Shown here in pieces: positions 840 through 58,671 of a stretch of DNA of 64,000 bases (positions are counted from its first letter, which is position 1; each line of letters starts with the position of its first letter). This stretch comes from Candidatus Bathyarchaeota archaeon (lineage in GTDB: Archaea; Thermoproteota; Bathyarchaeia; Bathyarchaeales; Bathyarchaeaceae). A program made the translations under genes and the position numbers. The stretch is from the NCBI GenBank assembly GCA_004376295.1, contig SOJZ01000004.1:62001-126000 (forward strand), in the 5' to 3' direction. The notes beneath the pieces were generated by a model. The model was given only the letters and a program-made list of their open reading frames with translations. It was not told the DNA's origin and searched no databases.

Positions 840-918
840 TTCATTTCCTCACAATCATAAAAGTTTATGGTCGTAATATTTATTTAAGAACGCCTATGCG
901 GTTGTGCTGGAGGACTTG

Positions 919-1248
919 ATGATAAACGTGACTTCGTTGAAGATAGATGATAAAGTGGCGATTGGTTTAGAAGTGGAGCTGCCGGATTCTCCAACCCTTC
1001 TTATGATAATCGGGCAGACAGGATTTGTGATGTGCGGTTTTCTCAACATGGGCACGGCTGAAATACTGGATGTGGCCGCGGCTATGGTGAGTGGTGTAAG
1101 AAACTTTGACGATGTTCTTGGAGCTGAAATTAAGGCGGCAACATCCAAGGTTCAGATCAAGGGAATAAAAGTTGGAATGAAGAGAAAAGAGACCGTCAAA
1201 CTGCTTTTTAGGTCTATATACCATTTAACTCCCACCTTCGTCCCCTGA
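919..1248 (+). CDS. DUF1805 family protein
   Basis: Small protein of about 109 aa matching the DUF1805/YunC family, which has a compact alpha/beta fold and no settled biochemical role. Family-like segments are IIGQTGFVMCGFLN and GIKVGMKRKETVKLL, with an internal VRNFDDVLGAEI helix. I chose ATG 919 because GGAGG lies 5 nt upstream; a GTG at 904 would add five residues and has no ribosome binding site. It stands alone, divergent from the CDP-alcohol transferase, and is followed 160 bp later by proS with its own promoter. No function is proposed. Confidence 0.8.
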   Translation: MINVTSLKIDDKVAIGLEVELPDSPTLLMIIGQTGFVMCGFLNMGTAEILDVAAAMVSGVRNFDDVLGAEIKAATSKVQIKGIKVGMKRKETVKLLFRSIYHLTPTFVP

Positions 1249-2917: not shown

Positions 2918-3102
2918 TTGACTAAAGATACAATTCGAATGAAAGTTTGGCGCATTATGGAAGAAAAAGGAATTACTAGCTTCCCTCGACCTGCATGCAT
3001 GATGTGCAAGTTGTCGAAATTTTTCCTCAAAATGAATGGGATGTCCCAGTGGATGTTACAGTCTCTCCAACAAGGGTCATTCGAAAATCTAGAAAAACAT
3101 AA
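2918..3102 (+). pseudogene. 5-formyltetrahydrofolate cyclo-ligase family remnant with large internal deletion
   Basis: Two ends of one gene are joined out of frame. The first part, from TTG 2918, reads KDTIRMKVWRIMEEKG then ITSFPRP, the usual N-terminus of archaeal cyclo-ligase-like proteins. From 2998 a different frame reads HDVQVVEIFPQNEWDVPVD and TVSPTRVIRKSRK to TAA 3100-3102, the usual C-terminus. About 60 of roughly 230-250 residues remain, so the ATP- and folate-binding core is lost. The joint is TGCATGCAT at 2992-3000, the same palindrome that borders the island near 49-58 kb. The single open frame running to 3241 is an accident of this fusion. After 3102 a short codon-like stretch from GTG 3108 also stops at a second TGCATGCA, 3163-3170. 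Confidence 0.7.
2992..3000. repeat. TGCATGCAT at the cyclo-ligase deletion joint
   Basis: Exactly between the N- and C-terminal pieces of the pseudogene. A second TGCATGCAT lies at 3163-3171, 163 bp further on. Confidence 0.6.
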
Positions 3103-3227
3103 ATCACGTGATTCTGGAGGTTGGTACTGCGCAACTAGTTGTCAGAAAAGAAATAAATTCTGTGCATGCATACCTTTTTATTCTTTCTCTAAGAAAAACC
3201 TCGAATGCCTAGATGGGTGGCATAACA

Positions 3228-48963: not shown

Positions 48964-48975
48964 GCATGCATGCAT
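48964..48975. repeat. GCATGCATGCAT, left island border
   Basis: Palindromic repeat that ends the GNAT fragment. About 60 bp further in, CGTAAATATCC (49029-49039) occurs; the same order recurs at the right border. Confidence 0.7.
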
Positions 48976-49054
48976 CGAGCGTTTAACATAGATCGTTTAC
49001 GTTTTAACATTCAAAAGCGTAAAGAATGCGTAAATATCCAAAAATCGGGGGACG

Positions 49055-49146
49055 AATGGTATAACTAATGGTATAACTAATGGTATAACTAATGGTATAA
49101 CTAATGGTATAACTCATCGCTTTTTTACGTTCTGAATGGTATAACT
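49055..49146 (+). repeat. 12-bp iteron array
   Basis: Five perfect head-to-tail copies of AATGGTATAACT (49055-49114), then after 20 bp a sixth (49135-49146). Identical 12-bp units without spacers resemble iterons, which bind a replication or partition protein, or operator arrays. The isolated core GTATAAC recurs in the island at 49226, 56655, 56713 and, inverted, 58083. Confidence 0.85.
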
Positions 49147-49149
49147 TTT

Positions 49150-49315
49150 CGATATTGTCGAAATGCGAGTTCTCCCCGTTTTGAGGTTCTTTTCATGTTT
49201 CAGAAGGGAAAAAACCGATACGCGCTGTATAACGCATGTTAATCGACGGAAATTTTCGCGATTTCAACATTAAAAACATGAAAACTCGAAACGACAATAT
49301 CGCTTTTTCATGTTT
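49150..49315. repeat. Inverted repeat pair beside the iterons
   Basis: CGATATTGTCG (49150-49160) returns as CGACAATATCG (49292-49302), and TTTTCATGTTT (49190-49200 and 49305-49315) is inverse to AAACATGAAAA (49274-49284). The region is unusually CpG-rich compared with its surroundings. Together with the iterons it looks like a replication origin or control region. Confidence 0.6.
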
Positions 49316-49519
49316 CCAAAAATTAGACGACGTTTCGCTTTTCACGTCGCGTCGGATTTAGCGGAAGAATGGTCGGAATTTCTGAACGGGGCCGACGGAG
49401 AATCGCTCAACGAGAAATTTAACAACTTCATAAGACAACAAGTCCACAAACCGAATAAAGAAGAATGGTTGAAATCGATTCGCGAGTCCGAAGCATGCAT
49501 GCGTTTTGTTCTCTATTGA
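49310..49519 (+). CDS. Small ORF after iterons, possibly truncated
   Basis: 69 codons, RRRFAFHVASDLAEEWSEFL then NGADGESLNEKFNNFIRQQV, with two amphipathic helices and strong CpG use unlike neighbouring genes. I recognise no family; size and position directly after iterons suggest a plasmid-type DNA-binding or copy-control protein. The palindrome GCATGCATGC (49493-49502) falls in its last codons (EACMRF), after which only five residues remain, so the true C-terminus may have been replaced. No ribosome binding site is clear. Confidence 0.4.
   Translation: MFPKIRRRFAFHVASDLAEEWSEFLNGADGESLNEKFNNFIRQQVHKPNKEEWLKSIRESEACMRFVLY
49493..49502. repeat. GCATGCATGC inside the end of the iteron-side ORF
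   Basis: Separates the CpG-rich iteron segment from the CpG-poor restriction-modification segment. Confidence 0.7.
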
Positions 49520-49690
49520 TAGTCTTTCTTTCCAGAGTATTCCTTCCACATTGAAAGACTACGTCACTTTCTGGCTTTACCTTTCTGAGTTCAATGGTTT
49601 CTGTTTGTTGATAATCCATTCAATCACTTCTTTCTTAACTATGAACAGATGCAAGAACTTTAAAATAAGCATTGATTCCTAAGATGTCTT

Positions 49691-52540
49691 GTGGGCTTAT
49701 CACTTATGAGAAATCGGAAGAGTTCAGTACCCGAAAGGGAAATTCATGTAAGATTATGGGAGATATTCAAGAATGTGATTTTTAGGGAGAAACTTGAGTT
49801 TGAAGGCACTCAGTTCGTAGACATCAAATTCGAACCTACAATTAATGGAAGACCAGACTTAGTTATTGAAGCTGTTGAAAAGACAAGAGCAAGAAAACTT
49901 CCTTTGTTAATTATTGAAACTAAGAGAAAGGTGCCTTATAGAGATCCGAGATTCGACCCATACAGCATTCAAGTCATAAAGCAAGCAGCAGGCTATGCAA
50001 ATCAAATGGGTGCCCCCTACTTCGCAACCTGCAACGGAGAAATAATGGTAGTCTTTGAGACATTCACTCCTGGCGTTCCTCTAATCCAAAGGAGGCTAAA
50101 ACAGTACAAAGTGTTCTATGAAGAGGAATTTGCAAGAATAGTTCTGAAAGAGTTAGTTAGGTTCAAGCTTGGTGTAGGCAAATGGCTACCACTTGATGAT
50201 ATTTTTGTTGAAAGACTGAGGTCATTTCACAGGTTCATAACACCTTTCATGTATGAAGCTCTAACCGAGAAATTAAAAGAGGACAAGAAGTTCAAAAAAG
50301 AATACAACAATTGGCTCAAGTCTCAGATGTTCGAATACTCTGACAAAACTAATGAAACGATTGCTGAACAGATGTCTTACCTTTTGATGAATAAGATTGC
50401 TTTCTACAAAACTTTGGAGAGCCAGATAGTTGATGTAGACTTGGACAAACTGGAGAAGATTGAAACCAAGAATGGTGTGGAATTTTCACAAAGACTTCAA
50501 GACAAGTTTCAAGAGTTGACCAAGAAAGCTGATTATGAGGGGATTTTTCAAACTACAATTCTTGATTCTGTTCCTGTTCCAGACAAACTCACGTATCACC
50601 TTAATGAGTTTATAGAGGAGCTTGGGGCCTACAATTTAGGCAGAATTAAAGCTGATGTTATAGGCAGAGTGTATGAAGACCTCATTCCACCAGATGAGAG
50701 ACACAGACTTGGACAGTATTATACTCCACCTCCTATTGTTGATTTAATTGTTGAATTATGCGTAAAGTCTCCAGATGACAAAGTCTTAGACCCAGGTTGT
50801 GGAAGTGGAAGCTTTCTGGTAAAGACTTACCACAAGCTGAGAGATTTGAAGAAGAAAAAGAATCCATTTGCAAAGGATGAGGACTTACATCAAGAATTAC
50901 TTAATCAAGTCTATGGTATAGACATTAACCCTTTTCCTACACAACTGTCTTCAATGAATCTGGCAGTTAGGAATCTCAAAGTTAGAAGTGAGCACATTAA
51001 CTTGTTTCCAATGGACTTCTTTAAAGTCAAACCAGGAATGGCATTAGTTCCGAAGGAGTTTGATGTTGTCATTACTAACCCTCCTTACACCAGACAAGAA
51101 GAAATGGAATACAAAGACCAAATCAGAGAAGCTGCTTTAACATATTCAGATGGTTCAAAAATAGAGATGGGTGCAAGAGCTGGAATCTATGCTTATTTTT
51201 TCACCCACAGTGCTAAGTTTCTGAAGAATGGAGGCAGAATGGGTTATGTCACATCCACCTCTTGGCTTGAAGCTAACTTTGGGAAAGATTTACAGAAATT
51301 CTTTCTGAATCATTTTAAAATACTAGCGATAATAGGATATGAGAAAAGAGTTTTCGAAAAAGCAGCAGTGAATACCTGCGTTGTCATTCTAGAAAAAGCG
51401 GACGGCAAGGAACTTATTAAGGAGAGAGACATCAATCTGACGAAATTTGTAAAATTAAAACGAAAGATAAAAATCGAAGATGTATTAGGTGCCATAAAAC
51501 CCACTGGAAAGGACTATGAGACAAAGGATATAAAAATCCTAGTCAAGAAACAAGGAAATCTTCACCGAGATACAAAGTGGAGTAAATATCTAAACGCTCC
51601 CACGATTTACTTCAAGCTTTTAAGAAATCCGAAAATGATAAAACTGAAAGAAATCGCAGATATTCGAAGGGGTGTCACGACAGGAGCAAATCCATTTTTC
51701 ATATTGGATAAGCAAAAAGCTGATCATTGGGGAATTGAAAAGAAGTATTTAAAACCATGCATTAAATCAACACAAGAAGCAAAGTGTTTAGTTTTTGAGG
51801 AAAAAGATGTTAAATACTATCTTTTAGTAGTGCACGCTGATACGGAAGAGCTCAGAAGAAGAGGACACTCTAATGTTTTATCGTATATAGAGGATGGAGA
51901 AAGAAAGGATTATAATAAAAGGAGAACAACTGAAAGCAGAAAAATATGGTATGATTTAGGCGAATTGAGACCTGCTCCTCTGTTATCAACTTTGAACATT
52001 TGGCAAAGACACCTAATCATACGGAATAAAGTTGAGGTTTTAGCGACTCATAATCTATATGAAATCCGACCTAAAAATACTGACGTCCTACTAGGTGTAC
52101 TTAATTCTTCTTTAACTGAATTATTCATGGAAATACATGGTAGAGTAGTTCTTGGAGAAGGGGCACTTGCTATAATGGTTTATGAAATGAAAAATCTTCC
52201 TATTCTTGATCCTCGAAAAATAACGAAACCTAATCAAAAAAAGATAAACGTTATCCTTTCAAAATTAGCAGACGCACAACGTAAAAATGAAAAAGATGCT
52301 GAAAAGAAAATTAGAAGAGCTCTTGATAAAATTATATTTGATACTCTAGGTTTAAACCGCAATGAGCAAAAAGAGATTTATGAAGGATTAAAATCTTTAA
52401 AACAGATGAGGCTTAAGAGAAAAGAAGTTGATGTTCTTGTTGAGACTGCTGAGAAATGGAAACCTAGAAAAAAAGCTAAGAGAAGAAAGATAGTTGAAGA
52501 AGTACCTTCTAAAAGACTTGATACTTGGATGAAAGATTAG
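49691..52540 (+). CDS. One-polypeptide (type IIG-like) restriction-modification enzyme
   Basis: 949 aa fusing nuclease, methyltransferase and target recognition. N-terminus: PD-(D/E)xK nuclease with GRPDLVIE (residues 53-60) and LLIIETKRK (E76, K78). Middle: N6-adenine methyltransferase with motif X LGQYYTPPPIVDLIV (about 339), SAM motif I VLDPGCGSGSFLVK (about 363) and catalytic NPPY (about 462). C-terminus: a TaqI-like recognition domain (LKEIADIRRGVTTGANPFFI, LNSSLTELFMEIHGR). It should methylate and cut the same site; the site is unknown. A TATA box (CTTTAAAATA, 49659-49668) predicts leaderless GTG 49691; ATG 49706 is the alternative. Confidence 0.9.
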   Translation: MGLSLMRNRKSSVPEREIHVRLWEIFKNVIFREKLEFEGTQFVDIKFEPTINGRPDLVIEAVEKTRARKLPLLIIETKRKVPYRDPRFDPYSIQVIKQAAGYANQMGAPYFATCNGEIMVVFETFTPGVPLIQRRLKQYKVFYEEEFARIVLKELVRFKLGVGKWLPLDDIFVERLRSFHRFITPFMYEALTEKLKEDKKFKKEYNNWLKSQMFEYSDKTNETIAEQMSYLLMNKIAFYKTLESQIVDVDLDKLEKIETKNGVEFSQRLQDKFQELTKKADYEGIFQTTILDSVPVPDKLTYHLNEFIEELGAYNLGRIKADVIGRVYEDLIPPDERHRLGQYYTPPPIVDLIVELCVKSPDDKVLDPGCGSGSFLVKTYHKLRDLKKKKNPFAKDEDLHQELLNQVYGIDINPFPTQLSSMNLAVRNLKVRSEHINLFPMDFFKVKPGMALVPKEFDVVITNPPYTRQEEMEYKDQIREAALTYSDGSKIEMGARAGIYAYFFTHSAKFLKNGGRMGYVTSTSWLEANFGKDLQKFFLNHFKILAIIGYEKRVFEKAAVNTCVVILEKADGKELIKERDINLTKFVKLKRKIKIEDVLGAIKPTGKDYETKDIKILVKKQGNLHRDTKWSKYLNAPTIYFKLLRNPKMIKLKEIADIRRGVTTGANPFFILDKQKADHWGIEKKYLKPCIKSTQEAKCLVFEEKDVKYYLLVVHADTEELRRRGHSNVLSYIEDGERKDYNKRRTTESRKIWYDLGELRPAPLLSTLNIWQRHLIIRNKVEVLATHNLYEIRPKNTDVLLGVLNSSLTELFMEIHGRVVLGEGALAIMVYEMKNLPILDPRKITKPNQKKINVILSKLADAQRKNEKDAEKKIRRALDKIIFDTLGLNRNEQKEIYEGLKSLKQMRLKRKEVDVLVETAEKWKPRKKAKRRKIVEEVPSKRLDTWMKD

Positions 52541-52566
52541 CATAGGTTTTAAATTGTGAATGGTAG

Positions 52567-52577
52567 GCATGCATGCA
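52567..52577. repeat. GCATGCATGCA after the restriction-modification gene
   Basis: Lies 27 bp after the stop. Immediately after it a frame reads CKCKKCGKIIAEPKELIRMG without a start, a zinc-knuckle header that seems cut here. Confidence 0.7.
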
Positions 52578-52641
52578 AATGTAAGAAATGTGGTAAGATA
52601 ATAGCAGAACCAAAAGAATTGATTAGAATGGGGGAATTAGT

Positions 52642-52899
52642 ATGGGAAAGATCATGGAGAACTGTTGGTTCTTCTATGATGACCAAACCGTATGGGCAGT
52701 TTGTGTGGATTGTATGGAAAAAGGATTAGAACGTGAGGATTATTGGACAAAGGTTGTACAGACCGATAGATTTCCTTCATTTGACGCTTTTCGAAGAGAA
52801 ATAAACTCAGCACCAATCAAGATTTTATGCAACGCCAAGAAACATGAGTTAACAATAAGCAGATTTTGGTTTAGCAGGAAGAAAATGAAGAAACCATAA
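52642..52899 (+). CDS. Small Cys-containing protein of unknown function
   Basis: 85 aa with ENCWFFYDDQTVWAVCVDCM, a possible metal site made of spaced Cys, then DRFPSFDAFRREINS and a basic end (SRKKMKKP). No family is recognised. A separate frame just upstream (52571-52640) encodes CKKCGKIIAEP, so the original gene may have been longer and frameshifted. ATG 52642 lies after GGGGGAATTAGT. In the restriction-modification segment; a regulator or accessory protein is possible. Confidence 0.45.
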   Translation: MGKIMENCWFFYDDQTVWAVCVDCMEKGLEREDYWTKVVQTDRFPSFDAFRREINSAPIKILCNAKKHELTISRFWFSRKKMKKP

Positions 52900-52922
52900 A
52901 ATGCAAGAAATGCGGAAAAGTT

Positions 52923-53471
52923 ATGGTAGAACCAAACATGCCAAAAGAGAGGGAAATAATGGAAACGTCAGATGATGAATTAAAAAAGAAGCTGGATAAA
53001 ATTAGAAAGAAACTACTGGAAAGTCAAAAGCTGGATGCTGAGACTTCTAGGAGATATAGCGTTGCCAATGAGAAAATGGCTGGTTATCTCATTGAACTTA
53101 TTGAATCTCAAAGAGACAAACTAAAGGACAAAAAGAGGGTAGGTAAGTTGTTAGGTATCCTTCTGCGAATTAATGATTTGAGAGTGCAAGTAATGACAGA
53201 GTATCTTTCTTTTCGTGTAGAACCACTCAGAAAAATCCGTCCACTCAAAGCACTTCCAGTGCTTCAAGCCACAAGCAAAATGGTTGAGGTTTATAATCAA
53301 ATTAGAACTGACTTAGCCAGTTTTTTCTATAATGAAGACTCAAAAACCATAAATCTTCCTTTTGTTCCAAGTACCAAACCTATTGGCCCAGAAAGCAAGT
53401 TGATGCAACTGAACGTTTGTCTAGGACAATTGCAGGGGCTTGTTTTAGGTAGACTCTACGAATCTCTGTAA
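52923..53471 (+). CDS. Hypothetical helical protein
   Basis: 182 aa, mostly charged helices; the first 75 residues look coiled-coil (DDELKKKLDKIRKKLLESQ, YLIELIESQRDKLKDKKRVG), then a globular end with LNVCLGQLQGLVLGRLYESL. No family is recognised. The frame just upstream reads TIKCKKCGKVMVEPN, repeating the zinc-knuckle header seen at 52571, so the start could be earlier or at the later ATG of METSDDE. Same strand as the restriction-modification gene; possible accessory protein. Confidence 0.5.
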   Translation: MVEPNMPKEREIMETSDDELKKKLDKIRKKLLESQKLDAETSRRYSVANEKMAGYLIELIESQRDKLKDKKRVGKLLGILLRINDLRVQVMTEYLSFRVEPLRKIRPLKALPVLQATSKMVEVYNQIRTDLASFFYNEDSKTINLPFVPSTKPIGPESKLMQLNVCLGQLQGLVLGRLYESL

Positions 53472-53490
53472 AAGAACAAAAAGAACCTAT

Positions 53491-53498
53491 ATGCATGC
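53491..53498. repeat. ATGCATGC after the 182-aa gene
   Basis: Occurs 20 bp beyond the stop codon, in TATATGCATGCCTTA, at the border to the membrane-protein segment. Confidence 0.5.
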
Positions 53499-53574
53499 CT
53501 TATCAAAGTTCTGCACAGAAGATGCATTGTTTAAATCTTTCAAATAACGTTTGATATCTTTAGAGGTATCTTGA

Positions 53575-54369
53575 TTGCCAAAGAAGAAATCAACAATGGA
53601 TAGGTCTATCGAGGTATTGAACAAACTAAAGGAGATAGAAAAAAGATTAGAAACATTAGAAGATAGAATCAAAAGCATTGAAGTAGAATCACGCTTAGGT
53701 CTTGAGGATCAGCTCTTTTTTGGATTAGTGTTTTCATTACTCATACTGGTTATCACCTTTCCTTCTATCAATGATATGGCTAGTTTCTTTGAAGATATAC
53801 CTCTTATTTCTTCCAATGCTTTCTCATATGCATATTCAATAAAGCTTACCCTAATAGTGCTCCTCTTCCCTGCTAGCGTATTCAAATATTATGGAGCAAT
53901 TAGGAAATCACAGTTTGCCCAATATCATTCTATACGTATCCTATTATTAGCTAGCTTTTTCTTTGTATTCATGATCATTTTTATTTTTCTAGGGCAGTTT
54001 CTTAGCCAAATCGTTGGGGAGAACGTGTTACCAATTCTCTTTTTTGCTCTTATTCTACTAGGATTAGGGTTAGGCGTGATTGAAAAAAGGGTTTTATACT
54101 TCTATCACTCTATCGGGCAACTTACACTTGATAAGTATATTAGGGTAAATGCTTGCCTTTTTGTTCTTTCGATGGGTACGAGTTTCTTTATCTTTTCGTT
54201 TACACTGATAACCTTGGCAGAATTCTTTGCACTACAATTTTCCTTTATTATATTCATCATTTCTCTGATAGTGTCTTTCACGTTACCATTTTACCTTATC
54301 GTATTGAGATATGCGGTAAAAATTGATCTCATGTATGAAAGAATATGTAAGAGATGGAGGAAGTCCTGA
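53575..54369 (+). CDS. Coiled-coil membrane protein of unknown function
   Basis: 264 aa. The N-terminus is a short coiled coil (IEVLNKLKEIEKRLETLEDR), followed by about six TM helices (FGLVFSLLILVITF, KLTLIVLLFPASVFKY, ILLLASFFFVFMIIFIFLG, LPILFFALILLGLGLG, ACLFVLSMGTSFFIFSFTLI, FSFIIFIISLIVSFTLPFYL). No catalytic motif is seen. TTG 53575 has GAGGT 8 nt upstream and a TATA-like TTTAAAT about 45 bp upstream. It faces the nuclease-like gene on the opposite strand. Some defence systems include such membrane effectors, but nothing here proves it. Confidence 0.55.
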   Translation: MPKKKSTMDRSIEVLNKLKEIEKRLETLEDRIKSIEVESRLGLEDQLFFGLVFSLLILVITFPSINDMASFFEDIPLISSNAFSYAYSIKLTLIVLLFPASVFKYYGAIRKSQFAQYHSIRILLLASFFFVFMIIFIFLGQFLSQIVGENVLPILFFALILLGLGLGVIEKRVLYFYHSIGQLTLDKYIRVNACLFVLSMGTSFFIFSFTLITLAEFFALQFSFIIFIISLIVSFTLPFYLIVLRYAVKIDLMYERICKRWRKS

Positions 54370-54434
54370 CTAACTGTATGCAGGCAGAAAACATTGTTAG
54401 AGTAGCTACGGTGACCTCAGTCTAATTGGCAAAT

Positions 54435-55685
54435 CTATTCAAACTCACTAAGCATCAATTCACCATTTTTAGTCAAGATTTTCTTTACAATGCCTTTCGA
54501 GTCTTTCTTTCCAGAAATAACATCTTTCCACAGTTCAAACAAAGTTTTGGATGTTAGGCAACAAACACCCAAGCGTCTGAAGTAATCCTTGACCTTTGGA
54601 GAGAAATCCATTTTTCCTTCTCTTTCTTGAGGTGGAAAATCCATATATGTATTGGCAATGAGAACAATTTTCTCTTCTTTGCGATGAACTAGATCAAACC
54701 TTCCCGTCTGGTTAACTTTTTCTGAACTCACTCCCACACAACCTTTAATTCCTGTAACTTCAATGGCAACTTTTTTGCTAATCAAATCAGCTGGAAAACC
54801 CTTTTCAGTTTTCTTAGTCTTGATTCCTATGTCAGACAATGCTTTTTGAACTATATTTTCTAAATCATCTCCTGTTGATGTCAACAGATCTCTATATGAA
54901 TCCCATTGAAACATTTGTATCTGAAGTTCGGAAATCTCTTTTTGAATCGTTGTGAAAATTTGTATCTGTTTCTGTGTTTTTTGTTGTATTTCTTTTTGGA
55001 CTTCTTTTACTCTTGGAACTTCAACGTCTTTTCTCCAAGGTGGAACATATTTCTCTTCTTTACCCCAAATCATATCTATTATTATCTCCATTGCCTGATG
55101 AATATCGCATTCGGTTGGAGGCGGAAGAAAATGAATATACCCCTTTACATAAGGTTCCCCTGTAGAATATTGCTTTCCCATGAACGTCCCTGCGATAATC
55201 TTTTTTGATTTGTTCGTGGCAATTGGAACTAACTGGTATAAGAATACATTTCCCAGTCTTTCCCACACATCACGTCCAAGTTCCAACTCAAACTCATATT
55301 TCCAATTTCTGACATACTCAAAGTATTTCAAGGATCTCTGGTTAACTACGAAAATTGACGTCCCTCTTTTTGGATTGAGTGCCAGTTTGACACTCAACCA
55401 ATCATAGTTGGAAGATTTTGTCCATTTGGTAAGAGGTACTGTTAATAACTCATTTATTATACAAAATACTTCTCTACCCGTTTTGAACAGGGTATTAATC
55501 TCGTCTTTCATTTTCGCAAGTTTATTAGTCTTGCACAACTGATTCAGAGTGTCTATAGATAGAGACTGTAAATTTATGATAACGCTATCGTATTCTTCGA
55601 TATTTGGAAATGGTTGCAACCAATCAATACAATTGACTCTATTGTGATCCTTTGAACCTATTACTAAGATTCTCGGTTTTGCCAT
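54435..55685 (-). CDS. Protein with C-terminal PD-(D/E)xK nuclease-like domain
   Basis: 416 aa. Residues 1-200 look like a sensing or NTP-like alpha/beta domain (RILVIGSKDHNRVNCIDWLQ, then TSIFVVNQRSLKYFEYV), not assigned. A coiled segment follows (VKEVQKEIQQKTQKQIQIF). The C-terminal third, from DDLENIVQKALSDIGIK, has GFPADLISKKVAIEVTG, the D...E-x-x pattern of restriction-like nucleases, though the third acidic/Lys residue is unusual (E-V-T). A defence role is likely given its neighbours. ATG 55683-55685 has GGTGA 5 nt upstream. Confidence 0.6.
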   Translation of the reverse strand: MAKPRILVIGSKDHNRVNCIDWLQPFPNIEEYDSVIINLQSLSIDTLNQLCKTNKLAKMKDEINTLFKTGREVFCIINELLTVPLTKWTKSSNYDWLSVKLALNPKRGTSIFVVNQRSLKYFEYVRNWKYEFELELGRDVWERLGNVFLYQLVPIATNKSKKIIAGTFMGKQYSTGEPYVKGYIHFLPPPTECDIHQAMEIIIDMIWGKEEKYVPPWRKDVEVPRVKEVQKEIQQKTQKQIQIFTTIQKEISELQIQMFQWDSYRDLLTSTGDDLENIVQKALSDIGIKTKKTEKGFPADLISKKVAIEVTGIKGCVGVSSEKVNQTGRFDLVHRKEEKIVLIANTYMDFPPQEREGKMDFSPKVKDYFRRLGVCCLTSKTLFELWKDVISGKKDSKGIVKKILTKNGELMLSEFE

Positions 55686-55809
55686 TGTAGTCACCAATAA
55701 GTTGAGCCACCCTGAAATAAAGATTATTTGGGTATAGAAGTTTCTTTCTTAAATCTTTAGTACAAGTTGAAACGATATGATAGAAGGCAAATGAAAAGAG
55801 GTGTTGAAT

Positions 55810-56355
55810 GTGGAAATGAAACTAGCCTTGGTAATAGGGATTGTGATAGGCTTAATTGGTGGTGTAACAGTCGGATACCTTGTTGCACCTAAAGGCGTAG
55901 GCACGGATACGTCAGCCTTGGAGCAACAGATCAGTCAATTAGAAGGACAGGTTAGTACTCTTGAAAGCCAAGTACAAGAGAAAGATAACCAAATCTCCAA
56001 TCTAACATCACAGATAACGGAGTTAGAGCAGTTAGTACCTCCTCTTACAAAAGGAGAATGGAACACCATAATAACATTCACAGGTTCAGCGTATAAAACT
56101 ACAGAACTATTCCATATTCCGAGTGAAACTTGGCGTATCAATTGGACTTACACAGGAGGGAGTTTAGCTATATTCGGTTTCTTTGTTTATCCAGAAGGCG
56201 AAACAGTACTCCCTGTAGAGACCCTTTCAGCGACGGGGTCAAGCAAATCGGATGCAACTTACATTTATGAGGGACAAGACAACTTCTACGTCAAACTTCT
56301 TGCTGCAAACATCGACCCATGGACGCTAACAGTACAAGCCTTCATTCCTTCGTAA
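55810..56355 (+). CDS. Membrane-anchored coiled-coil surface protein
   Basis: About 181 aa. An N-terminal TM anchor (LALVIGIVIGLIGGVTVGYL) is followed by a parallel coiled coil (residues about 38-75: LEQQISQLEGQVSTLESQV, NQISNLTSQITELEQLV) and then a beta-rich globular domain (WNTIITFTGSAYKTTELF, then FFVYPEGETVLPVETL). It probably stands off the cell surface on the coil. GTG 55810 has GAGGT 7 nt upstream; GTG 55801 and ATG 55816 are alternatives. No partner is known. Confidence 0.6.
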   Translation: MEMKLALVIGIVIGLIGGVTVGYLVAPKGVGTDTSALEQQISQLEGQVSTLESQVQEKDNQISNLTSQITELEQLVPPLTKGEWNTIITFTGSAYKTTELFHIPSETWRINWTYTGGSLAIFGFFVYPEGETVLPVETLSATGSSKSDATYIYEGQDNFYVKLLAANIDPWTLTVQAFIPS

Positions 56356-56859
56356 AAAGAATACTGGAACAAATATCAAACAAGATAAAGCAAACACCAA
56401 GTACTCAACTATTCCTTCTTTTCTGACTATGCTAGCTTATAGAATGGAAGTCTCCTTTTCTCAATTTACGAAAATGTAGTTAAGGTATTCACTTTATAGT
56501 TTCTTTCTTGCTTGTGGAAGAGAGTAGGTAAACTATCAAATGTATTCTACAAGGAAAAAGAGGTCTTTAAGGAAACTAAAGCCGTTAGAAAATACGTAGA
56601 TACTATGTTGATCTTGTCTCTCTGCATAATGTCTGAATTTTACTATTAGTTGTGTATAACAAATACCTAAGTAGGCTATATCAATGTTGAAATAATGTTA
56701 GATATTTGTGTATAACCACATAATTGACTTGAACTTACACAACCTAACTCTAATATAGAAACAACACAAGCGAAATGTAACAGCAAAGGTGAAGAGTATT
56801 AGAAAACTATATGTTGAGCTAGAATTAGTGATATTCTTGACAATCCATATACAAGCAAA
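56356..56859. other. Mostly non-coding stretch with island-type repeats
   Basis: About 500 bp. It holds one possible 45-codon ORF (56512-56649) and two copies of GTGTATAAC (near 56653 and 56711) around AATGTTGAAA (56683-56692). This motif set also occurs at both island ends, so it may be an operator or a degraded end repeat. Confidence 0.45.
56512..56649 (+). CDS. Possible 45-aa small protein
   Basis: TTG start, reading WKRVGKLSNVFYKEKEVFKE then TKAVRKYVDTMLILSLCIM to TAG. Basic first half, hydrophobic helix second half. A TATA-like CTTTATAG lies about 20 bp upstream. It may equally be a remnant. Confidence 0.25.
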   Translation: MWKRVGKLSNVFYKEKEVFKETKAVRKYVDTMLILSLCIMSEFYY

Positions 56860-57528
56860 TTATCTGAACCCTAGCTCCTTTAGAGTAGGCTGTCTTTTAA
56901 CTATATTAAAACCGAGAATGAACGCCCATCCACCCTCAGTCAAATGTTGACCCAGAATTTTTCCAACATCTGAATCGCATGTGAATTGAATTTTTCCCTC
57001 TGCGACCAATTCATCTGTCTCTCCACCCATCCAATAGGCTTTTCCACTGGCAGGAATGAGAACCAACCGTCTCGTAGCAGGCTTATAACGACTTCCTTTA
57101 GTTAGAAAATATGCGTGAGGAGTTCGTGAGCGTCTATCCTTCAAATTAAGTCCTATTTCTTCCAACATATCAATAGGATTTTGCCTTTTAAACTCTATCC
57201 ATTGTTTTTCTTCTCCTCTTAGAGGCTCTGGAAGATCAACATGTTTCTCCCAAACTGGAATCAGCACTTTTCCTAGTGTTTTGGCTATATTAATCTCCCT
57301 ACGAACCCATTTAGACGTTTGTGCATTGGTTGTATAAAGCACCAAAACACAGTCAGAACTGTCAATGTCTTTTTGGATTTTCTTCCACAATTCGTCACCC
57401 GCTTGTTTAGCATGTTCTGATACAAGAACCTCAATTCCCATAAGGGTTAGAAGATTGTAGATCCTCTCCATGAACCATTCGTCTTTTTCAGGATAACTCA
57501 TAAAGACTCGAAATGGGTGCAGATACAA
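56860..57528 (-). CDS. TIR-domain protein, putative defence NADase
   Basis: About 222 aa. Residues 1-125 form a TIR domain: FRVFMSYPEKDEWFMERIY (first strand and loop), LVSEHAKQAGDELWKKI, CVLVLYTTNAQTSKWVRREI. The Glu in WVRREINIA is at the position of the NAD-cleaving Glu of TIR enzymes. The C-terminal 90 residues (RRLVLIPASGKAYWMGGETD, then DVGKILGQHLTEGGWAFIL) are unassigned and may sense a signal. Microbial TIR proteins often act in abortive phage defence. TTG 57526-57528 has GGTGA 5 nt upstream; the frame is open to 57546. Confidence 0.8.
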   Translation of the reverse strand: MYLHPFRVFMSYPEKDEWFMERIYNLLTLMGIEVLVSEHAKQAGDELWKKIQKDIDSSDCVLVLYTTNAQTSKWVRREINIAKTLGKVLIPVWEKHVDLPEPLRGEEKQWIEFKRQNPIDMLEEIGLNLKDRRSRTPHAYFLTKGSRYKPATRRLVLIPASGKAYWMGGETDELVAEGKIQFTCDSDVGKILGQHLTEGGWAFILGFNIVKRQPTLKELGFR

Positions 57529-57584
57529 TTCGGTCACCAATATCAATTAGTTGAATGAAAACATTAATTTTTCCTATCGGTTAT

Positions 57585-57593
57585 TGCATGCAT
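57585..57593. repeat. TGCATGCAT between TIR and integrase pieces
   Basis: Palindrome core in the gap between the TIR gene start and the integrase fragment end. Confidence 0.6.
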
Positions 57594-57615
57594 AAGTGTT
57601 GATAAAAAAGAGAGG

Positions 57616-58074
57616 TTATGGAGATACTGTATGTTCTAGTTCTCTTAGTGCATTGAATACCCTTTGTCTTAGTTCTTTGATAGCAGGACTCCAATAGTGT
57701 CTAACAAAGATAGACTTGGTAATTCTTCCTTGTAGCAAATCTACTTCTTCTCTGATTAATCCATGTCTAACCATGAAGGTAGCATAGAAATCTCTTAGTC
57801 CACTGATCTTCACACCTAATCCTTTCCTAGAAAGTCTCTTTCTAATCATCTCGTAGGTTAGGGAATCAGATTGTGCTATTTGCATTATCATGTCTTCAGG
57901 TATCATTGAAATGAAGACGTTCTTAGTATTCCTAAAGAACAATTTTGGATATTTGAAATGTTCTAACGTCTTTAGTTCCTTGTTATAATATTCATTCATC
58001 TTTCCGTTGTCATGTAACTCTATCATCAGATTGAAAGCGTTTATTGCTTCTGTCTTTCTTAGGCATGCATGCTG
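57616..58074 (-). pseudogene. Archaeal tyrosine integrase, C-terminal fragment
   Basis: The catalytic domain of an archaeal (SSV/pNOB8-like) tyrosine recombinase: LRKTEAINAFNLMIELHD, FKYPKLFFRNTKNVFISMI, VKISGLRDFYATFMVRHG, then VDLLQGRITKSIFVRHYWSP with the R-G, H and nucleophile Tyr. The frame starts right at the palindrome: CATGCATGCCTAAGA reads HACLRKTEAI where families have TGLR, so the break lies just before the first catalytic Arg. The N-terminal half is absent. The ATG at 58024-58026 could still start a 136-residue product lacking that Arg. It marks the island as an integrative element. Confidence 0.8.
58063..58072. repeat. GCATGCATGC at the integrase break
   Basis: Begins the right-end element: GCATGCATGC, about 45 bp, then CGTAAATATCC (58118-58128), matching the left border order at 48964-49039. 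Confidence 0.75.
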
Positions 58075-58128
58075 TTAAGATTTGTTATACGTTTCCTTTA
58101 CGCTGATGTTGAAACAACGTAAATATCC

Positions 58129-58671
58129 CTAATGCATGCATGCGATGCTGGCAGCGGCTTTCGTTCGATCAATTAACTCCTCGGCAGCTTGCTTGGCCTT
58201 TCTTTCGTCTATGGGGAAACTTATGACAGAACATGTATGTATAGGCCCTCGCTGTAGGCTAACGGCTCTTTCTGCTTCTTCCAGACTGACTGGTAACAAC
58301 CCAGCTCCCCTACAGGCAGCCTTTACTGTATCGATAAAGGGTTCCTCTGTGACAAGGACAGGCAAAGCTTTAAGACCTATATTTAATGCTCTAGCCAAGA
58401 CTGCAGCACCAGGAGGGCCGTCATTTTCACATATTCTAGGAGACACCCATGGTCGAAGTGGATAACCTGTCGCTATTATTACCCCGTTGCCTGGTTTTAC
58501 CATCTTTGCCAATTTTTCAGCGGCATGAAGTGTGAGCGATCTGCCGAGCTTACTTCGAGCGGCTTCATATAGTTTATCAATGCTATGAGGCGGACGAAGG
58601 TGAAAGTCGATTGTGATGATTTGGTCGATTGCATTTCCTAGGCGTTCTCTAAGAGTTTTCTCCTCCTTCAA
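58129..58671 (-). pseudogene. DUF4392 (D-glutamate cyclase-like) protein, C-terminus lost at island edge
   Basis: 180 residues corresponding to the N-terminal part of the DUF4392 domain: KPGNGVIIATGYPLRPWVSP, ENDGPPGAAVLARALNIGLK, ALPVLVTEEPFIDTVKAA. Members convert D-glutamate to 5-oxo-D-proline or are uncharacterised, and are usually near 300 aa. Here the chain stops after TKAAASIACMH, the last four codons made by ATGCATGCATGC plus TAG. The missing end should include the GRN-type active-site region, so the product is likely inactive. It is the last gene after the Liv operon. TTG start, possibly further downstream. Confidence 0.7.
58132..58143. repeat. ATGCATGCATGC, right island border
   Basis: Overlaps the last codons (ACMH and stop) of the truncated DUF4392 gene. 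Confidence 0.75.

Follow-up and report, generated by a model that had tools for sequence, protein, structure and literature searches.

TGCA-repeat runs at a pseudogene joint and at other rearrangement joints in Bathyarchaeia

Introduction

Within the window, that is, the whole stretch of 64,000 nucleotides analysed from a Bathyarchaeia contig, the two ends of a 5-formyl-THF cyclo-ligase (5-FCL) gene meet at a short TGCA palindrome. The question raised by this locus is whether the palindrome already stood where the gene broke or was put there when the ends were joined, and whether similar joints exist elsewhere in the lineage. The preliminary description of this DNA had placed the palindrome at the pseudogene joint (2992-3000) and in a second copy nearby (3163-3171); TGCATGCA is indeed present at both places (2992-2999 and 3163-3170). 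It had also regarded the palindrome as a breakpoint motif lying outside the island of the window and tied to internal gene loss; the comparison of orthologues agrees with this view and extends it genome-wide.

Genomes and comparisons

The source genome (G000) is a Bathyarchaeia MAG of 1.89 Mb with 99.8% completeness. Its comparison with the close relative G003 covered about 0.9 Mb of the 1.9 Mb of G000 and 1.5 Mb of the 1.8 Mb of G003, and the identity between the two is 94-98% around the 5-FCL site. Two intact 5-FCL genes, L024 and L028, of the family members G009 and G005 were the references for the identities. An outgroup is lacking for some events, and so their polarity (deletion or insertion) was judged from gene integrity.

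Results

The 5-FCL remnant and its joint

The segment 2918-3102 comprises the first 25 and the last 34 residues of a 5-FCL protein, which lie in different frames and meet at a TGCA run; the left piece (2918-2992) translates as LTKDTIRMKVWRIMEEKGITSFPRP and the piece from 2998 as HDVQVVEIFPQNEWDVPVDVTVSPTRVIRKSRKT. Homology to the 5-FCL family (PF01812) holds for both remnants, which match the N- and C-termini of intact genes (identities in Table 1), in agreement with the pseudogene first described, with its two gene ends joined out of frame at the palindrome. The sole Pfam match of the C-terminal piece was PF01812, below threshold (E=0.066, 33 aa), and no PF01812 match was found anywhere in G000. 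The internal loss is large, as had been claimed, and when measured against intact homologues it comes to roughly 70% of the gene (about 141-147 codons). The motif was also correctly placed at the joint, although the TGCA-phase run goes one base past the palindrome originally quoted (2992-3001).

Alignment with intact homologues had been proposed as a check on whether the motif was added at the joint, and it was carried out. TGCATGCA is found in none of the 11 intact 5-FCL genes with both ends locatable. In the nearest intact relatives the V-H-D codons at the right edge of the joint read GTG-CAT-GA, and therefore up to 6 bases to the right and 2 to the left of the joint may be native, with as few as 2 bases new. 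Native bases at the right edge would fit in-register priming. Taken alone, the 5-FCL joint would be no proof of addition, and an added run would be secure here only when the clean cases found elsewhere are considered with it.

The remnant and its joint are identical in G003, inside a stretch of 98% identity, which indicates that the joint is not an assembly error and that the deletion predates the split of G000 and G003. The 5-FCL gene is absent at the corresponding place in G001 and G002. The copy at 3163 has the counterpart TGCATACA in G003 and TGCACGCAT in G001. Because the run at this boundary is decayed in G001 (TGCACGCATACC) and the left-hand DNA is different there, it looks like a second joint.

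Table 1. Coordinates of genes, remnants, TGCA runs and module copies (window positions unless a genome and contig are given)
Feature	Position	Strand	Remarks
DUF1805 gene	904..1248	+	Intact in window and in outgroup G002; TGCATGCATGCA instead in G003 (C25:25862-25873)
5-FCL N-terminal remnant	2918..2992	+	25 codons, TTG start; 68-69% identity to L024/L028 N-termini
(TGCA)n run, 10 nt, at 5-FCL deletion joint	2992..3001	.	Same in G003; TGCATGCA absent from intact homologues
5-FCL C-terminal remnant, other frame	2998..3102	+	34 codons plus stop (3100-3102); 73-76% identity to L024/L028 C-termini
(TGCA)n run, 9 nt	3163..3171	.	Apparent joint between 5-FCL remnant block and upstream region of radical-SAM gene
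(TGCA)n run, 12 nt	48964..48975	.	Left edge of defence-like island; homology to G003 C36 begins; partner swap
(TGCA)n run, GCATGCATGC phase	49493..49502	.	Missed by TGCATGCA search
(TGCA)n run, 11 nt	52567..52577	.	Directly after N6-methyltransferase gene; homology to G003 C16/C45 begins
(TGCA)n run, 9 nt	57585..57593	.	Homology to G003 C3 begins
(TGCA)n run, GCATGCATGC phase	58063..58072	.	Adjoins archaeal phage integrase fragment
(TGCA)n run, 12 nt	58132..58143	.	End of partial glutamate-cyclase-like gene (58129-58671, profile positions 2-139 of 291)
75-bp module loci	G000 C10:49835-49908, C16:13045, C19:1721, C5:41507; G003 C31:116903, C35:1574

Abundance, form and distribution of the runs

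TGCATGCA occurs 6 times in the window against 0.96 expected from dinucleotide shuffling (none of 100 shuffles reached 6), and 427 times in the whole G000 genome compared with 6 for the reversed motif. The octamer captures only part of the real feature, which is the maximal TGCA-cyclic run of 8-14 nt in any phase. Runs of 9-14 nt are far above an order-3 simulation, with a sharp length limit near 14; they start and end in random phase, and no flanking consensus was found around them. In the first 609 kb of G000, 92 of 98 runs lie outside the genes predicted by a simple purpose-built ORF scorer, even though 80% of the sequence is coding. When period-4 runs of at least 10 nt were counted, the ATGC class alone was strongly enriched (134 against 5.7 simulated in G000, and 184 against 6.3 in G003), with the other tetranucleotide classes near expectation. 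A slight surplus of ACGC-class runs in G003 (10 against 2.3) perhaps consists of decayed TGCATGCACGC forms of the main run.

This restriction to one tetranucleotide class argues against microsatellite slippage, which in any case cannot join unrelated DNA. Chance or an assembly artefact might be suggested because the genomes are metagenome assemblies. However, the same joints appear in two separate assemblies with 2-6% sequence difference around the 5-FCL site, and runs are present in single-contig relatives too, so that we give this whole group of explanations a next to negligible likelihood. A viral source with long TGCA repeats was considered and rejected: two IMG/VR contigs carry (TGCA)6, and the one examined in detail is apparently a fragment of an unrelated phage that ends in a simple repeat.

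Among relatives, TGCATGCA is counted 332 times in G003, 224 in G012, 117 in G001 and 22 in G002, while the longer TGCATGCATGCA is counted 79 times in G000, 49 in G012, 42 in G003 and 35 in G197. Genomes with the latter belong mainly to two families of the same order, and it is missing from 208 of the 257 genomes of the class. G000 and G003 are the most run-rich genomes of their genus. Run content is patchy and varies within genera, and therefore the responsible gene should be findable by comparative genomics.

Runs at rearrangement joints

Synteny between G000 and G003 breaks at 40 of the 57 alignable run sites, compared with 21/72, 23/67 and 15/70 at random noncoding sites. This control contradicts the reading of the runs as an ordinary selected motif unrelated to rearrangement, such as a regulatory, DNA-uptake or methylation-linked iterated palindrome. 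A strongly over-represented and mostly intergenic palindrome is what that reading would predict, but the runs occur in any phase, reach 14 nt and are tied to deletions and swaps, and we consider it very improbable. A promoter or terminator element was also discarded, as a flanking consensus is absent and the association is with breaks instead.

The individual events are more direct. In the cleanest one (case B), 705 bp of G000 (C12) is represented by exactly TGCATGCA in G003 (C30), and a TGCA run is present at neither ancestral end of the 705-bp stretch. A gene that is intact at G000 C1:19350-20500 has suffered two deletions in G003 (C19), with TGCATGCA at each joint. The third clean case is the DUF1805 gene, replaced by a run in G003 (Table 1). 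In all of these (C30/C12, C19 and DUF1805) the gene is still whole in the other species, and the motif is missing there from the point of breakage. In G001 the DUF1805 gene is truncated, and its joint is decayed and TGCA-rich; DUF1805 has been lost or truncated separately in two congeners (G003 and G001), with a TGCA-like joint both times. When large indels were collected without regard to the motif, a run of at least 8 nt stood at the joint in 7 of 49, and a pure insertion of a run into otherwise continuous DNA was seen at none of 390 run sites. We consider it almost certain that, in this lineage, (TGCA)n runs are markers of rearrangement joints.

Native bases adjoining the runs were also examined at ends where the other species has no run. 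Of 39 such ends, 20 have native bases in register with the run, where permutation gives 10.4 (p=0.0007), and at 7 ends two or more native bases are in register, against 2.5 (p=0.002). The excess suggests that addition was templated, with the broken end as primer. It counts against such tailing that a larger excess has been reported with telomerase (about 75% of loci; PMC2246262).

Moved segments and the island

Runs are also places where DNA changes neighbours. By flank side, 48 have the same partner in the other species, 41 continue there without a run, and 47 keep the run and change partner; some of these last sides belong to copies of a single module that are related to one another, and a few are borderline by eye, so that the 47 are not all independent. 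A 769-bp segment with a HAD-type hydrolase-like frame (labelled by inspection, not by family search) exists in two copies of 99% identity in unrelated contexts, with TGCATGCATGCA on both sides, and in a third copy of 97% identity whose edges have no runs. A 75-bp module with the internal inverted repeat TTTTAGTGGTT...AACCACTAAAA lies between runs or near-runs at no fewer than six loci in G000 and G003 (Table 1). Two related AsnC-like regulator frames, named by inspection, were found at G000 C10:29649-30323 and C23:19347-20000 in a segment that begins at a TGCA run, and further partial copies exist at C4 and C5.

One might conclude that a dedicated system of recombination or cassette exchange uses the runs as its sites: an enzyme would cut and exchange at them, so that segments move from one run to another, somewhat as in integron cassettes or a shufflon. 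The 47 partner changes agree with this, as do the hydrolase-like gene, the 75-bp module and the AsnC-like gene, each of which is bounded by runs on both sides. Such a system would not explain clean deletion joints that have no run at either ancestral end, nor run ends of variable phase without a flank consensus. Moreover, no serine recombinase was found in G000, G003 and G012, in a search confined to the serine class. We regard the cassette reading as rather unlikely.

Another explanation, which we consider quite improbable, would derive the runs from a transposon or MITE with (TGCA)3 terminal repeats, either as its ends or as footprints left by its excision. It could account for the 75-bp module, which has internal inverted repeats and is run-flanked at several loci, but repeat families end at a run in just 25 of 328 run flanks, phase-random ends misfit a fixed terminal repeat, no target duplication is visible by eye at the two young 769-bp copies, and pure insertions are absent as noted above. 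A MITE was set aside as a source, since there is one small module only.

In the window, the island at 48964-58143 contains an Eco57I/MmeI-like N6-methyltransferase (949 aa), a TIR-domain protein, an archaeal phage-integrase fragment and a partial glutamate-cyclase-like gene, and TGCA runs are dense in it. It looks like a patchwork defence island.

Enzyme candidates

Searches for known end-processing enzymes gave negative results: the reverse transcriptase RVT_1 (PF00078) was not found in G000, G003 and G012, Ku was found in neither G000 nor G003, and Prim-Pol, Pol Y and PolX (PolX thumb) were not found in G000. Together with the serine resolvase, they were all rejected as shared determinants because they are undetected in G000. 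Translesion polymerase Y (PF00817) is undetected in both G000 and G003 and present in the congeners G001 and G002. The Ku-bearing relatives G013, G015, G021 and G022 have no TGCATGCATGCA, which may hint at alternative joining routes, although this is a correlation only and involves few lineages.

Discussion

Proposed mechanism

We propose that an end-joining activity would add TGCA repeats to broken 3' ends. The addition would start in register wherever the repeat matches the final one or two bases of the end, and would thus be templated, whether by RNA, DNA or protein; the tailed ends would then anneal and be ligated. TGCA is self-complementary, so any two tailed ends can pair, which would make the joining promiscuous and account for runs that have no flanking consensus. 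Existing runs may later serve as microhomology or fragile sites, with the segments between them lost, copied or swapped. The 5-FCL pseudogene would be one such internal deletion, formed before G000 and G003 diverged.

The evidence for the joint pattern is strong, whereas we infer the end-joining enzyme from it. We lean slightly towards runs being added during joining over runs arising by recombination between older sites. New joints exist, but old runs are frequent places of swaps too, and this keeps the preference from being stronger. Partner swaps are as common as new joints, which tailing itself does not predict and which weighs against pure tailing, and both tailing and swapping at old runs may operate. 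The fullest form of the proposal is a dedicated break-joining system of Bathyarchaeia, with a fixed self-complementary tetranucleotide tail and telomerase-like in-register priming but without a recognised reverse transcriptase or Ku, which would make all broken ends compatible and drive gene loss, cassette movement and island assembly. We put this forward tentatively, as a possibility that falls somewhat short of an even chance.

TGCA runs provide a genome-readable scar for mapping rearrangements, and joining through them would show concretely how pseudogenes could form and islands be assembled in a major uncultured lineage.

Comparison with known systems

Integron gene cassettes are similar in that complete genes with short bounds resembling recombination sites are exchanged. 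Unlike integrons, the runs have neither a flank consensus nor a structured site of the attC kind, an array at a single integrase locus was not seen, and TGCA joints form without a prior site. The filler DNA known from end joining is copied from nearby sequence or is random. The archaeal joints are like filler DNA and templated insertions (Ku-dependent NHEJ, polymerase theta) in having extra bases at deletion joints and short microhomology, but they always carry the same tetranucleotide, and Ku was not found in G000/G003. To our knowledge, fixed-sequence filler at break joints is otherwise known just from eukaryotic telomerase; its occurrence in archaea where the expected enzymes were not found points to a novel DNA-end polymerase or joining pathway. 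No earlier report of TGCATGCA in archaea was found in a search of open-access literature.

HIP1 of cyanobacteria is also a palindromic octamer that is over-represented genome-wide and patchy among relatives, and a connection between it and site-specific recombination has been proposed (PMC4390886). HIP1 is a fixed octamer tied to methyltransferases, whereas TGCA runs are phase-random, lie mostly outside genes and occur at rearrangement joints.

The interstitial telomeric repeats of mammals come closest. They lie at double-strand breaks with end bases in register at about 75% against 25% (PMC2246262), and insertions with accompanying deletions are their commonest class (PMC2246262, PMC7215372). 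The archaeal unit is TGCA (4 nt, self-complementary) instead of TTAGGG, and here RVT_1 was not found, pure insertions are absent and the runs double as swap points. Since the runs are telomeric-repeat-like but the reverse transcriptase that defines that family was searched for and not detected, we assign them to no known family. Nevertheless, both are fixed-unit short repeats at joints, often flanking a deletion, absent from orthologous loci and with the native ends in register.
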